Virus record (IMG/VR): IMGVR_UViG_3300009151_000033
Coordinates: 87,249-151,248 of that record
Length of the DNA: 64,000 bases
From: a virus
Direction: 5' to 3' (one strand)
Shown here: piece by piece, positions 7,676 to 44,860 of the stretch
Numbering within the stretch: position 1 is the stretch's first letter
Layout of the letters: the number at the start of each line of letters is the position of its first letter
The notes under the pieces: generated by a model
The model's input: the letters and a program-made list of their open reading frames with translations, nothing else
Databases searched by the model: none
What the model was told of the DNA's origin: nothing
Made by a program: the position numbers and the translations under genes

Positions 7676-8248
7676 ATGTATAAATGTATATATTGCAATA
7701 AGGAATGTAATACTACAAATTCGATAAAAAATCATGAAAGACTTTGCAAGTTAAATCCAAATAGACAATCAAGTGGATTTGATTTTATCAATAATACAAA
7801 GTTTTTTTGTGAGTTTTGTGGTTCTGGATTTACAAAAGGAAATTTTAAAAAACATATTAATTCGTGTAATTTAAATCCTTCCTTTCTAGATGCAAATAGA
7901 AAAGAATGTGTTGTTTGTGCAACCGTGTATTATAAAAATACAGAAACTTGTTCACATGCATGTTCCAATAAACTATTCAGATCGGGTGCAAAAAATGGCA
8001 ACTGGAATGGAAATAACTACCAATCTATATGTTTTTCGGAACATGGTAAAAAATGTTTAGTCTGTGATGAAACAAAAATTGTTGCGGCCCATCATGTAAA
8101 CGAAGATCATACTGATAATAGACCAGAAAATATAGTGCCTTTATGTCCAACACACCATCAATACGTACATAGTAGATATAAAAACGAAATTCAGCCTATT
8201 ATAGATAATTACCTATATACTAAATATAATTCATCTCTGGCGAAGTAG
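7676..8248 (+). CDS. HNH homing endonuclease with zinc fingers, 190 aa
   Basis: Three parts are visible. Two Cys/His fingers come first (C4, C7, H20, C24 and C45, C48, H60, C64). A CxxC...CSHAC treble-clef-like finger follows (C78-C96). The HNH/McrA-type core has CLVC, AAHHVNEDH, the Asn of NRPENI, and CPTHH (about residues 127-165). This is the build of phage homing endonucleases. It is AT-rich relative to the flanking structured DNA and has its own late promoter. It sits inside structured non-coding DNA on both sides, which is where intron- or RNA-borne endonucleases usually sit, but no split gene is visible. Confidence 0.88.
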   Translation: MYKCIYCNKECNTTNSIKNHERLCKLNPNRQSSGFDFINNTKFFCEFCGSGFTKGNFKKHINSCNLNPSFLDANRKECVVCATVYYKNTETCSHACSNKLFRSGAKNGNWNGNNYQSICFSEHGKKCLVCDETKIVAAHHVNEDHTDNRPENIVPLCPTHHQYVHSRYKNEIQPIIDNYLYTKYNSSLAK

Positions 8249-17973: not shown

Positions 17974-18009
17974 TTGAACCGAGTTTCCTCTTATTTAGTG
18001 TATAATTTT

Positions 18010-18966
18010 ATGAATCCAAATATTTGCCAAATTTGTAATAGAAATTTCAAATCTAAGCTTTCGGAAATAAGACATGTCAGCCAAGCACATAAAAAAACAT
18101 CAAAAGAGTATTATGATTTATTTTACAAAAAAGAAGTAGAAGGTAACTGTTTTGTTTGTAATCAAGAAACAAAATTTTTAAGTATTGTCGAGGGGTATGC
18201 AAAAACATGTTCGCATATTTGCGGCGGAAAATTACACAGAAAAAATCTTTCATTTGAAGCAGAAAAATTTCAAAAATTTAAAGAATGTGTTTCAATTAAC
18301 CAAAAAAATATTTGGAAAAATAGAACGACAGAAGAAAATATAACAATTCGAAACAAAATTTCTAAAACATCCACCTCGAATAATAGCAAATTAACTAAAG
18401 AAGAATTAGCTATAAAATACAGTAGATATCATACGTGTGATGACAAAACTATCGATAGATTAAATAAATTAGGCGCAGAACAATGTATAAAAAATATACA
18501 AAATCAAACATCAGGGTTCAATAAAGCAATGAAAGGTAAATTCAAACCAAATAATCCAAAAAAATACAAAGGTGATCCGACGAATATTATTTATAGAAGT
18601 TCATATGAATTCAAATTAATGACATTTTTAGACGCAAATCCAAATGTATTGCAATGGAACTCAGAAGAAGTTATAATTCCGTATAGAAGTCCTATTGATG
18701 GCAGAATACACAGATATTACGTGGATTTTTGGGTTGAACAAATCAATAAAGATGGCAAAAAAGAAATTCTACTAATCGAAGTAAAGCCTTCGGTCCAATG
18801 TTCACCACCAAAATTACAAAAAAAACAAACAAAAACTTATGTAAATGCCGTTGCAACTTGGCTAATAAATGAAGCCAAATGGAAAGCCGCGGAATCATTA
18901 TGTGAAAGTAGAGGCTGGAGATGGCAAATAATTACCGAAAAAGAATTGTTTGGCCGGTCTTCCTAA
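18010..18966 (+). CDS. 4: Head-completion nuclease gp4 fused to homing-endonuclease-like zinc fingers, 318 aa
   Basis: Residues 174-318 (from an internal ATG at 18529) match T4 gp4 in sequence and length (145 against 150 aa): MKGKFKPNNPKKYKGD, IIYRSSYEFKLM, a DFWV strand and IEVKPS, a PD-(D/E)XK/TnsA-like nuclease core. In front is an in-frame extension of about 173 residues with one C2H2 finger (C6, C9, H22, H27) and a CxxC...CSHIC finger (C47, C50, C67, C71), then an AT-rich linker. This resembles the N-terminal half of phage homing endonucleases, including the one at 7676. An AGGG before 18529 could also allow gp4 to be made alone. The ATG at 18010 is preferred over one twelve codons upstream; neither has a strong ribosome site. 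Confidence 0.85.
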   Translation: MNPNICQICNRNFKSKLSEIRHVSQAHKKTSKEYYDLFYKKEVEGNCFVCNQETKFLSIVEGYAKTCSHICGGKLHRKNLSFEAEKFQKFKECVSINQKNIWKNRTTEENITIRNKISKTSTSNNSKLTKEELAIKYSRYHTCDDKTIDRLNKLGAEQCIKNIQNQTSGFNKAMKGKFKPNNPKKYKGDPTNIIYRSSYEFKLMTFLDANPNVLQWNSEEVIIPYRSPIDGRIHRYYVDFWVEQINKDGKKEILLIEVKPSVQCSPPKLQKKQTKTYVNAVATWLINEAKWKAAESLCESRGWRWQIITEKELFGRSS

Positions 18967-25530: not shown

Positions 25531-25605
25531 TGGCGACCCCGGTGGGACTTGAACCCACAACCTAACAGTTTAGAATTGTTTGCTCTAACATTGAGCTACA
25601 GGGCC
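25531..25605 (-). tRNA. tRNA with CUA anticodon (putative amber suppressor)
   Basis: Cloverleaf with acceptor GGCCCTG/CGGGGTC, D-stem GCTC/GAGC, T-arm GTGGG-TTCAAGT-CCCAC, variable loop AGGTT, discriminator G and encoded CCA. The anticodon loop is TTCTAAA, so positions 34-36 are CTA, which reads UAG. Oddities are an A-C pair at 31-39 and a D-loop AATGTTA with one G fewer than the common AATGGTTA. It resembles a Trp-type body with one anticodon change, but the charging identity cannot be read from sequence. Confidence 0.8.
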
Positions 25606-28479: not shown

Positions 28480-28515
28480 ATAGGTGCGTTATGTTCGTCC
28501 TGTATCCTTATTTAG

Positions 28516-28554
28516 TATAAATATGTGTAGGTCACGGATAGCGGTCCCACCTAC
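28516..28554 (+). promoter_or_regulatory. Late promoter and leader hairpin of the GIY-YIG gene
   Basis: TATAAATA (28516-28523) followed by hairpin GTAGGT (28527-28532) with ACCTAC (28549-28554). The same layout with different stem bases occurs at 25714-25752. Confidence 0.6.
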
Positions 28555-28582
28555 TCTAGTCCTCATACAAGGAGCCCAGCAC

Positions 28583-29008
28583 ATGTTTATTTATTACGTC
28601 TATGCCTATCTAAGGGAAGATGGCACACCTTATTACATTGGTAAAGGAACCGGTAAAAGAGCATATGACAAAAGACATTCTGTTGGTATACCTCCCAAAC
28701 ATCGTATTGTAATAATGGAATCCAATCTCAGTGAATTGGGTGCTTTTGCACTTGAACGATTCTACATTCGGTGGTATGGACGTAAAGATATTGAAACTGG
28801 AGTTCTTAGAAATAGAACAGACGGCGGCGAAGGTCAACAGGGTATTGTCCGGTCAGAAGAAACAAAGAAAAAAGTTTCTGAATCAAAAAAAGGAATACCA
28901 CATCACTGGTGTTGGAATAGAGGATTAAAATGCCCACATTCTGACGAAACAAAAGAAAAAATTCGACAGAAAAAACTAGAATATTGGGCAAGAAAAAAAG
29001 CAAGTTGA
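28583..29008 (+). CDS. GIY-YIG homing endonuclease, 141 aa
   Basis: Starts at an ATG preceded by AAGGAG. GIY-YIG domain: YVYAYL, then TPYYIGKGTG (the YIG strand), an Arg-rich helix and ALERFYIRWYG carrying the metal-binding Glu. The C-terminal half has two NUMOD3-like motifs (SEETKKKVSESKKG and SDETKEKIRQ) that bind DNA. Seg-type freestanding mobile endonuclease. Its last codons overlap the terminator of the convergent tmRNA gene, so it may have inserted beside it. Confidence 0.88.
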   Translation: MFIYYVYAYLREDGTPYYIGKGTGKRAYDKRHSVGIPPKHRIVIMESNLSELGAFALERFYIRWYGRKDIETGVLRNRTDGGEGQQGIVRSEETKKKVSESKKGIPHHWCWNRGLKCPHSDETKEKIRQKKLEYWARKKAS

Positions 29009-29031
29009 TTCTGTTCCGAGGCTCAACTTGC
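29000..29031 (-). terminator. Rho-independent terminator of the tmRNA gene
   Basis: Minus strand: 9-bp stem GCAAGTTGA/TCAACTTGC (29031-29023 with 29008-29000) followed by seven T (complement of 28993-28999). Confidence 0.85.
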
Positions 29032-29315
29032 AAAGCCCGTGTAGATTATGCTGCTAGAGCAAATTCCACAGTGTTGTCATTAGCTGCGACATTTACAGTT
29101 TTTAGTCATTAACGGAACTACCCGAGTTGCTATTCTATCTACTAACTGTCAGTCGATTCTATTCGCCCCCAACAAAGATACACAGGTAGAGGCTTTCACT
29201 CTACTTTGGCTTATAGCCCCATCAAGACCTGTTGCGGCTGTGTACCTTTGGTGGAGGCGGGGAGATTCGCACTCCCGTGTTGCCCAGCTTTTAATAGTTT
29301 AGTTTACAACCATTG
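29000..29315 (-). ncRNA. ssrA: Circularly permuted (two-piece type) tmRNA
   Basis: On the minus strand the acceptor piece comes first. Its T-arm CGGGAGTGCGAATCTCCCCG and acceptor strand CGCCTCC end with ACCA at about 29250. An intervening segment follows, flanked by complementary AGGTACACAG and CTGTGTATCT. The mature 5' end GGGGGCG begins at 29170 and pairs with the acceptor strand (7 bp with one G-T). The tag frame GCA GCT AAT ... GCA TAA (29087-29046) encodes AANDNTVEFALAA, with the universal ANDN start and LAA end of tmRNA tags. Permuted ssrA is a hallmark of Alphaproteobacteria. It tags stalled peptides and frees ribosomes. The exact upstream end of the acceptor piece is approximate. Confidence 0.93.
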
Positions 29316-29322
29316 ATCTTAT

Positions 29323-29439
29323 TTAGTCATACCGCGCGGCTTCGGCCCGGCGCCCTACCTCGCGCTTCGCCAAAGCCGATTCGTTGGCTTCGATAGCAAA
29401 TTCGTTCACTTCCGAAACACTCGTCACTTCATACGGCAT
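29323..29439 (-). CDS. Hypothetical small protein, 38 aa
   Basis: MPYEVTSVSEVNEFAIEANE then an Ala/Arg-rich helix. AGAGAGA tract before the ATG. Located between the tmRNA promoter and the tmRNA acceptor piece, so it would be co-transcribed with tmRNA. Small and G+C-rich; moderately supported. Confidence 0.5.
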   Translation of the reverse strand: MPYEVTSVSEVNEFAIEANESALAKREVGRRAEAARYD

Positions 29440-29505: not shown

Positions 29506-29597
29506 TGGCGGCAGGAGTGGGATTCGAACCCACGGAACCCTTTCAGGTTCTCCGGTTTTCAAGACCGGTGCAATAAACCAGGCTCTACCATCCTGCC
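29506..29597 (-). tRNA. tRNA-Ser (TGA)
   Basis: Class II tRNA: perfect acceptor GGCAGGA/TCCTGCC, anticodon stem CCGGT/ACCGG with loop CTTGAAA (anticodon TGA), variable arm GAACC-TGAAA-GGGTTC, T-arm GTGGG-TTCGAAT-CCCAC, discriminator G, encoded CCA. The tmRNA promoter starts within 10 bases of its 3' end. Confidence 0.93.
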
Positions 29598-29607
29598 ATA
29601 TTGTTAC

Positions 29608-30216
29608 TTAGGCCACCAAACTAATGATGTTACCGTAAGACTTTTTAGCAGGAGAAATATTATCCCCATGTTGATTACGTACGGCTTCAATGATTCTTTT
29701 TTCTCGGTCGGGTTGCTGGAGGTCTAGAATCCTTTGAAGTAGTTGGTCAACATTTTCTTCCGGAATGATTAGTTCCGGTGGCTTTTCAACATAGGCAAAA
29801 ATATCAAAGTCCGACATCTTCTGTTGAATAGGACCTCTAATCACGGGCTCTGCGTCGATGGATTTAAAATCTTTAAAATGTAACGGGGCAGGATGCTGGA
29901 CGTAAACAACATCTCGGCCCATCGATATAACATTAAACTGTATCGGTTGGGTCAATCTTTGGCCCCGCAATGAACCATACACGTCCGTATTTTCACCATG
30001 AGCCTCGGCTAATCCTTTTAGATTATAGCCCCTGTGTTCCATGGCCAACAAATGCCGAGGCCGATAGTGCATTGCATCCATCATTCTGTCATATGATAAT
30101 TTCCATCCTGCATTTTGCAGGGCAAATGTATCACTACGGAATGAACCAAAATGTACTTCAATCGGCCGGGAAAGTATGGGGTCTACCGACAATTCAAAGT
30201 AACGGTCGACCGCCAT
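29608..30216 (-). CDS. Hypothetical protein, 202 aa
   Basis: Not recognised. Mixed alpha/beta, with RYFELSVDPI, a Pro-rich centre and a Gln/Glu/Arg-rich helical tail. Its ATG overlaps the stop of the 57-aa helical gene upstream. Soluble; probably early. Confidence 0.7.
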   Translation of the reverse strand: MAVDRYFELSVDPILSRPIEVHFGSFRSDTFALQNAGWKLSYDRMMDAMHYRPRHLLAMEHRGYNLKGLAEAHGENTDVYGSLRGQRLTQPIQFNVISMGRDVVYVQHPAPLHFKDFKSIDAEPVIRGPIQQKMSDFDIFAYVEKPPELIIPEENVDQLLQRILDLQQPDREKRIIEAVRNQHGDNISPAKKSYGNIISLVA

Positions 30217-39611: not shown

Positions 39612-39640
39612 ATTATGTATCATTTAGGAAAGAATGTCAA
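39612..39640 (-). promoter_or_regulatory. Candidate sigma-70-like promoter
   Basis: Minus strand: TTGACA (39640-39635), 17-base spacer, CATAAT (39617-39612), upstream of four overlapping genes. Confidence 0.6.
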
Positions 39641-40056
39641 CCCTCTTTTTTCATTTTTTTTATGGCATTGACGTGCATCGATGATACCTTGAGGGATATC
39701 CAATCGTTAAAATAATTGTCAGATAAAATTGCATCTTCGGACAAAATCATTTTTGCCTCATAATAGGAGGCGGAGGAACGGTTAGGACAGAGCATAACAA
39801 TTTCCCGCGTGAATTGATCGTGCCCATATTCGGCTATAGCCTTGGCGAGCGCAGGTGATGATCCATAATATGTTTGCCAGTCAGATGGCTTTCTTATTTT
39901 TTTCCGTTTGCCTTTGACCGTTTTATATCCAGCAGAAGTGAAAAATTTTCGACCTATATATTTTTTGCCAGAAGGAATATGAGTGATGACATAAACATAT
40001 CCATAATTTTCACCAATCATATCTTCAGTAAATGGTTCGCCTTTATATATCCACAT
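39637..40056 (-). CDS. GIY-YIG endonuclease, 139 aa
   Basis: GYVYVITHIPSGKKYIGRKFF gives GVY-like and YIG strands with the conserved Arg, ending in a helix with YYEAKMILSEDAI carrying the Glu. Similar to the small GIY-YIG proteins of T4-type phages. The start at 40056 is preceded by GGAGGG, which lies in the 3' arm of a terminator-like hairpin, so its translation may depend on RNA structure. Confidence 0.8.
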   Translation of the reverse strand: MWIYKGEPFTEDMIGENYGYVYVITHIPSGKKYIGRKFFTSAGYKTVKGKRKKIRKPSDWQTYYGSSPALAKAIAEYGHDQFTREIVMLCPNRSSASYYEAKMILSEDAILSDNYFNDWISLKVSSMHVNAIKKMKKEG

Positions 40057-40083
40057 AAAAAAATACCCTCCGTTCGGAGGGTA
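40057..40083 (-). terminator. Terminator-like hairpin containing a ribosome site
   Basis: Minus strand: TACCCTCC-GAAC-GGAGGGTA (40083-40064) followed by seven T, a rho-independent terminator for the 53-aa gene upstream. Its 3' arm GGAGGG is also the ribosome site of the GIY-YIG gene 8-10 bases downstream. Confidence 0.7.
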
Positions 40084-40088
40084 CTTAG

Positions 40089-40250
40089 TTATTCTTCCCA
40101 GTCTGTAATATCTTCTACTTCTTCGGATATATCTCCTCCACAGAATGGACAATAAGAAACATCCGTATAAGCTTGAGGATTACTAGGTACGATATCGAAT
40201 TCTGCTTCACAATAACCACAAGAATATGATTGATTTTCGTGTTTTGACAT
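40089..40250 (-). CDS. Zinc-ribbon protein, 53 aa
   Basis: Two CxxC knuckles: CGYC near residue 11 and CPFCGG near residue 34, then an acidic tail. A typical small zinc ribbon; partner unknown. Stops just before the terminator-like hairpin. Confidence 0.68.
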   Translation of the reverse strand: MSKHENQSYSCGYCEAEFDIVPSNPQAYTDVSYCPFCGGDISEEVEDITDWEE

Positions 40251-43635: not shown

Positions 43636-44301
43636 TTATCCTTCGGATACGGCAGACAATGCATCCAAAATTTCTGGAAATTCTAGTCCGATAATTTTTT
43701 GGCATTGTTCTGCAATTTCACGGTGTTCTTTTTGAGTTCCATTTGAAGTTCGTAGTTGGACATAATGAATCCATGACCTAAGATTTCCGGCCATATAAAG
43801 ACGAGATTCAGTCAGTCCTTCTGGTAGGATAGCACGTGCCTGTTCTTTGGCAATACCATTCTTCAATGCCCAATCATATGACGATTGGACATTTTCCAAA
43901 ATATGCTCTTGTCTGATTTGCCAGGCTCTTTGTAAAATTTCGTCATCTGTTTCTAAAGAATTTTGACGATTTTTTGTATCTTGCATTCGTGCTTCGCGAG
44001 TAACAAAGTTTTCGGCAACAGCATATCGCTGACTAAATTCTTGGAAAGAAAACGACCTATGACGAAGGATTTGACGGGCAATGTCTCGCGTCGTGGTGAT
44101 TTCCATCGTCATGTGGACCATTTCGAAAATTGACCAATGTTTATTTTTAATACAATAAGACAGTAGTTTACCTGATGTTTCTTTGTTCATTTGATTTGTA
44201 GGGTTACTAACTCTCGCACAATACGCAAGTAATTCTGAAGAGGTATTTAAACCTTCTATTGTAGGTTTACTAACCGAAATTAATTTAACACTATTTGTCA
44301 T
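43636..44301 (-). CDS. thyX: Flavin-dependent thymidylate synthase ThyX, 221 aa
   Basis: The diagnostic RHRSFSFQEFSQRY (residues 80-93) fits the ThyX RHRxxSxxxxSxR motif; ILPEGLTESRLYMAGNLRSWIHY supplies the conserved Leu-Ser/Thr and Arg residues. It makes dTMP from dUMP with FAD and folate. Fits with the class II RNR as a thymidine supply. Its start overlaps the end of the HNH gene by 11 bases. Confidence 0.95.
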   Translation of the reverse strand: MTNSVKLISVSKPTIEGLNTSSELLAYCARVSNPTNQMNKETSGKLLSYCIKNKHWSIFEMVHMTMEITTTRDIARQILRHRSFSFQEFSQRYAVAENFVTREARMQDTKNRQNSLETDDEILQRAWQIRQEHILENVQSSYDWALKNGIAKEQARAILPEGLTESRLYMAGNLRSWIHYVQLRTSNGTQKEHREIAEQCQKIIGLEFPEILDALSAVSEG

Positions 44302-44860
44302 ATTTCATTCCTTGTTTCCAATCACCTGGAGGACATTCATGTGATCTAACTCTTGTTCCATCAATATTAGTCCACCATTTTGTATTTTTTACGGCTTTAC
44401 TTCCATGAAAATTTGAATTTATATTCAAAAATCCAGCATTCTTTTCAGCGGCTATTTTACCTGCTTTGCGACCATTGTCAACTCTATCATTTATACCCAA
44501 AAAAGCATTGCCGGTTTTTTCTATTCTTGTTTTCATATGCAAATCAAAATTAATTTTTCTTTTTTCAGAATTGATTTGCCAATTATGATTTCCTTCTTCC
44601 CATAATTTTTTTTGTGCTTTAGAACAAATTTCTTTAAAATTTTCATTTTTAAAGTTTAAATCATTTTTTATTCTTAAAAATATAGATTGCACAGCAGACC
44701 AATCTTCTTGATCTAAATGTATTTGTAAATGACCTTCGATAGAAACGCATAATAAATTATCAATATTATTATTATTTCTATTTCCATCTATATGATGTAT
44801 TTCATATCCTTCTGGTATTTTTTTGCCGTGATAATTTTCCCATATTTTTCTATAATGCAT
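44291..44860 (-). CDS. Freestanding HNH homing endonuclease, 189 aa
   Basis: HNH core near the N-terminus: PEGYEIHHIDGNRNNNNIDN, then EGHLQIH. The C-terminal half has NUMOD-like helix motifs (HGSKAVKNTKWWTN, RKAGKIAAEKNAGF). AT-rich compared with thyX, into which its 3' end intrudes by 11 bases. A likely mobile gene targeting thyX of relatives. Confidence 0.85.
   Translation of the reverse strand: MHYRKIWENYHGKKIPEGYEIHHIDGNRNNNNIDNLLCVSIEGHLQIHLDQEDWSAVQSIFLRIKNDLNFKNENFKEICSKAQKKLWEEGNHNWQINSEKRKINFDLHMKTRIEKTGNAFLGINDRVDNGRKAGKIAAEKNAGFLNINSNFHGSKAVKNTKWWTNIDGTRVRSHECPPGDWKQGMKYDK

Follow-up and report, generated by a model that had tools for sequence, protein, structure and literature searches.

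A 64,000-nt stretch of viral DNA (hereafter, the window), part of a virus source record of 151,248 bases, carries a permuted, two-piece, alphaproteobacterial-type tmRNA gene (ssrA), an assignment that is secure on sequence grounds. tmRNA, the product of ssrA, is a bacterial RNA that releases stalled ribosomes. Our reading, to which we give a probability of about 0.8, is that the locus is an intact permuted ssrA of a T4-like phage, whose RNA would be cut by host enzymes and would work with host SmpB in ribosome rescue.

A preliminary description of the window had claimed a phage-encoded permuted tmRNA with all its parts on the minus strand, and this was borne out. The merged permuted-tmRNA model of Rfam, RF04321, matched positions 29046-29311 of the minus strand over its full length (model positions 1-213) with a score of 86.7 bits (cut-off, 47 bits; E 3.1e-15), and the parts were located in permuted order. 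The Infernal-type check proposed there, with the alphaproteobacterial model RF01849 (alpha_tmRNA), likewise gave a match over the gathering cut-off (60.5 vs 50 bits), covering 40-270 of 355 model positions. The modelled parts and their order are the same as in the alphaproteobacterial ssrA (RF01849)/RF04321 family, whereas the window gene differs in being phage-borne, in an RF04321 score below that of most relatives, and in a tag that was not found in the sampled host genomes. Small deviations from the consensus were found in the T loop (UGCGAAU) and in a GAAUAGAAUCGAC stretch. ARAGORN called five tRNAs and missed the tmRNA gene. The features of the locus, all on the minus strand, are as follows.

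29506-29597, minus strand: tRNA-Ser(UGA), the upstream neighbour, on the same strand as the tmRNA
29323-29439, minus strand: possible 38-aa ORF, MPYEVTSVSEVNEFAIEANESALAKREVGRRAEAARYD, directly upstream of the tmRNA and outside it, between the promoter-like site and the tmRNA
29249-29311, minus strand: acceptor piece, upstream in the gene, with a P2 strand, T arm, acceptor 3' strand, A and CCA; 29311 marks the start of the Rfam match
near 29311, minus strand: GGUUG strand of P2
29276-29260, minus strand: T arm (GGGAG, loop UGCGAAU, CUCCC)
29259-29249, minus strand: acceptor 3' strand CGCCUCC, then A and an encoded CCA
29171-29248, minus strand: intervening insert of 78 nt, expected to be removed, with ends AAGGUACACAG and CUGUGUAUCUU paired around three short hairpins
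29046-29170, minus strand: coding piece, from the mature 5' end GGGGGCG (from 29170) to the tag stop, placed by the Rfam match and acceptor pairing
from 29129, minus strand: P2 partner CAACU
within 29046-29170, minus strand: possible small upstream pseudoknot (CGG/CCG and UAGU/ACUA), read by eye
29046-29087, minus strand: tag frame (resume codon GCA, AANDNTVEFALAA, TAA), placed by translation and alignment with the tags of relatives
29000-29038, minus strand: post-tag pseudoknot, with S1 (GGGCU/AGCCU), S2 (GCAAGUUG/CAACUUGC), a loop with conserved GGAACAGAA, and a T-run after S2

Along the gene, the acceptor piece is followed by the insert and then by the coding piece, which is the permuted arrangement. 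The mature 5' end pairs with the acceptor as had been described: GGGGGCG and CGCCUCC form 7 of 7 bp, including the G3-U70 alanine identity pair, and are followed by A and a CCA end. The insert ends, earlier noted as complementary, are paired in the predicted fold, with a z-score of -3.0 for the insert alone and -4.4 together with the acceptor strands; the longest end helix is 11 bp. A glnA-type riboswitch was considered for the insert and rejected, as there was no Rfam match and no riboswitch family matched. The tag frame was also recovered as claimed, AANDNTVEFALAA plus TAA at 29087-29046, and specifies a tag of 13 residues ending in LAA. UGUC lies immediately 5' of the first GCA, which, by comparison with known tmRNAs, supports this GCA as the resume codon.

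The flanking signals were viewed differently after analysis. An early-type promoter of the gene's own had been placed at 29496-29469; with 10 matches out of 12, it is one of three sites of this quality in the sequence, where shuffled versions would be expected to contain 4.3, which is chance level. Transcription of the tmRNA could start upstream, running through tRNA-Ser and the possible 38-aa ORF, for which no Pfam match was obtained. The stem described as a strong terminator (29030-29001) finds no support as an element separate from the tmRNA: its two strands, CAAGUUG and CAACUUG, form S2 of the conserved post-tag pseudoknot, and relatives share the loop motif GRAACAGAA of this pseudoknot. 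Because a T-run comes after S2 in this genome, the stem may double as a terminator.

The window contains T4-like families (gp32, PhoH, a baseplate hub with lysozyme, baseplate wedge, tail tube, ribonucleotide reductase, primase, and a DnaB-like helicase), and the source phage is, by its predicted genes, T4-like. Homing and HNH-type endonucleases are usual in T4-like phages. An ORF at 28484-29008 (plus strand), with a NUMOD3 motif and a GIY-YIG-like start, converges on the tmRNA and overlaps the post-tag stem with its end; it is likely a homing endonuclease. Further homing/HNH-type endonuclease-like ORFs were seen by eye at 7676-8248 and 17974-18966 (plus strand) and at 39637-40152 and 44291-44860 (minus strand). 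A search for relatives of the 202-aa neighbour (29608-30216) found none. Elsewhere in the window, ARAGORN called a 'tRNA-Pyl' with anticodon CUA at 25531-25605 (minus strand), which is more likely amber-suppressor-like or miscalled than a tRNA-Pyl.

The preliminary description had left open whether phage cases have been reported; they have. The two-piece tmRNA of the T4-like Methylophilales phage Melnitz (MZ577097) was described in 2022, together with a count of 53 two-piece tmRNAs in phage genomes (PMC9004378). A 2025 study listed 79 phage tmRNA sequences and gave the RF04321 model (PMC11915505), and earlier phage tmRNAs had been listed along with an inhibitory, tRNA-domain-only form like that of DS6A (PMC4131195). 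Given these reports, the window tmRNA is a further case of a kind already published. Permuted tmRNA had also been called a trait of Alphaproteobacteria; the type is indeed alphaproteobacterial, but the statement is too narrow, since permuted tmRNA occurs in Betaproteobacteria and Cyanobacteria as well (PMC11915505). The Melnitz tmRNA resembles that of the window in its T4-like carrier, permuted alphaproteobacterial type, 7-bp acceptor stem with G3-U70, paired insert ends, ALAA tag end, and 3' pseudoknot motif. It differs in its place in the genome, in an insert of 142 nt (78 in the window), in its tag, ANDNYVPVDYALAA, and in the glutamine riboswitch that its authors reported (PMC9004378).

Relatives were sought in two ways. 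Two two-piece patterns were run over the IMG/VR viral contigs (viral_contigs), an earlier, looser pattern with many unrelated matches having been dropped, and at least 242 permuted candidates with a tag were present among the matches listed; this set was chosen by pattern and tag and is therefore unusable for measuring tag conservation. A less biased set was assembled via the neighbouring DUF932 protein (80 relatives), and RF04321 was run against 45 virus contigs from it together with five named phages. Matches over the cut-off were obtained in 29 of the 50, namely Melnitz, Mesorhizobium phage Cp1R7A-A1, phiCbK, and 26 of the 45 DUF932-bearing contigs, many of which are fragments, so absences of tmRNA mean little; phage C48C1 and phiN3 gave no RF04321 match over the cut-off. 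In 21 of the 26 tmRNA-bearing contigs, DUF932 is followed 0.6 to 3.9 kb downstream by the tmRNA, encoded on the same strand; the gap in the window is 1.2 kb. Permuted tmRNAs, as predicted by the model, are common in related phages, and because the neighbourhood with DUF932 is conserved (26/45 contigs, 21 in the same arrangement), selection is suggested.

Matches in two of the named phages fall at spots that carry no annotation in their records: Caulobacter phage phiCbK (JX163858.1:104215-104533; 71.4 bits) and Mesorhizobium phage Cp1R7A-A1 (MT188704.1:58735-59021; 99.3 bits). Their tags share with the window the GUCGCNGC start and are of the AANDN type. Unlike the window phage, phiCbK falls outside the T4-like phages, and it has a longer tag.

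Conservation was assessed across 30 loci, comprising the 29 RF04321 matches and the window's own. The 7-bp acceptor stem with G3-U70 was found in all 30, in five acceptor sequence versions, as was a degron-like tag end; the post-tag motif was present in 28 of 30 within the stretch examined. When 30 base pairs were scored in 25 sequences, 90.0% of cells were paired, compared with 72.1% after shuffling and 43-52% after sliding, and both sides had changed in 132 cells versus 35.2 in shuffles; no shuffle reached any observed value. Covariation extended to the stems of the acceptor piece and to helices 4 and 5, which form the post-tag pseudoknot, while some P2 and S2 pairs suit only part of the 25-sequence set. 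The insert ends pair over at least 8 bp in 26 of 28 phage loci (2% of shuffles). Among relatives the insert (5-150 nt) is far more variable than the mature pieces, yet a long stem closes it in nearly every case. Since the predicted structure is retained despite sequence change, these data fit a working molecule.

These observations bear on whether the gene is a host copy, acquired by imprecise excision or recombination, that has no phage role. Integration at ssrA is common, and the Melnitz authors raised such an origin (PMC9004378). However, the tmRNA is intact and covaries across divergent phages, its position is shared by 21 of the 26 contigs that have it, and no tyrosine integrase was found in the record. 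The exact pattern of an AANDNxxEFALAA-like tag had no match in the sampled bacterial genomes (genome_contigs), and the hosts with permuted tmRNA that a pattern search retrieved carry tags of the ANDN type, among which ANDNDVEFAVAA comes nearest. When phage and host tmRNAs were placed on one tree, most phage copies grouped together, apart from the sampled hosts; because its branches are long and its narrow host sample was fixed by the search pattern, the tree is weak evidence, and this grouping is a hint on origin. We consider a passenger gene unlikely.

The RNA might alternatively serve as a decoy, blocking trans-translation in the host by binding SmpB or alanyl-tRNA synthetase; mycobacteriophage DS6A has an RNA with the tRNA domain only, for which such a role has been proposed. 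Phages do attack host quality control, and a DS6A-like molecule inhibits tmRNA (PMC4131195; PMC11915505), but a decoy would need neither the tag frame, nor the degron end, nor the mRNA-side pseudoknot, all of which are kept in the window and its relatives, and we regard this role as quite improbable. Least probable to us is that the tag is directed at host proteins, an idea put forward for Melnitz on the basis of that phage's early promoter (PMC9004378) and one that would agree with the LAA end of the window tag; the window promoter is at chance level, and tmRNA targets stalled ribosomes, not finished host proteins.

Ribosome rescue by an intact phage ssrA thus remains our preferred reading, and the window RNA likely acts as a tmRNA during infection. 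Host tRNA-processing enzymes would cut the transcript, leaving two pieces that stay base-paired to each other, and the two-piece RNA would be charged with alanine and bound by SmpB, which the host would have to supply because no SmpB was found in the 151-kb record. During infection, the charged tmRNA would release ribosomes that have stalled on broken mRNAs, and the added tag, with its LAA end, would be recognised by host proteases. The likely benefit would be that ribosome recycling is maintained for phage translation, and phage control of ribosome rescue is plausible. More tentatively, and at clearly less than even odds, the permuted tmRNA of this T4-like lineage may be a long-kept phage gene, fixed beside DUF932, with its own evolving tags and a variable structured insert, providing rescue on the phage's terms rather than being a recent host copy.

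The window and its relatives extend a little-studied class of phage tmRNAs, which may be undercounted, given that ARAGORN alone misses the window gene. The most useful additions are the conserved place beside DUF932, the covariation, and the unannotated copies in phiCbK and the Mesorhizobium phage, which, the hosts of both phages being cultured, would make the function directly testable.
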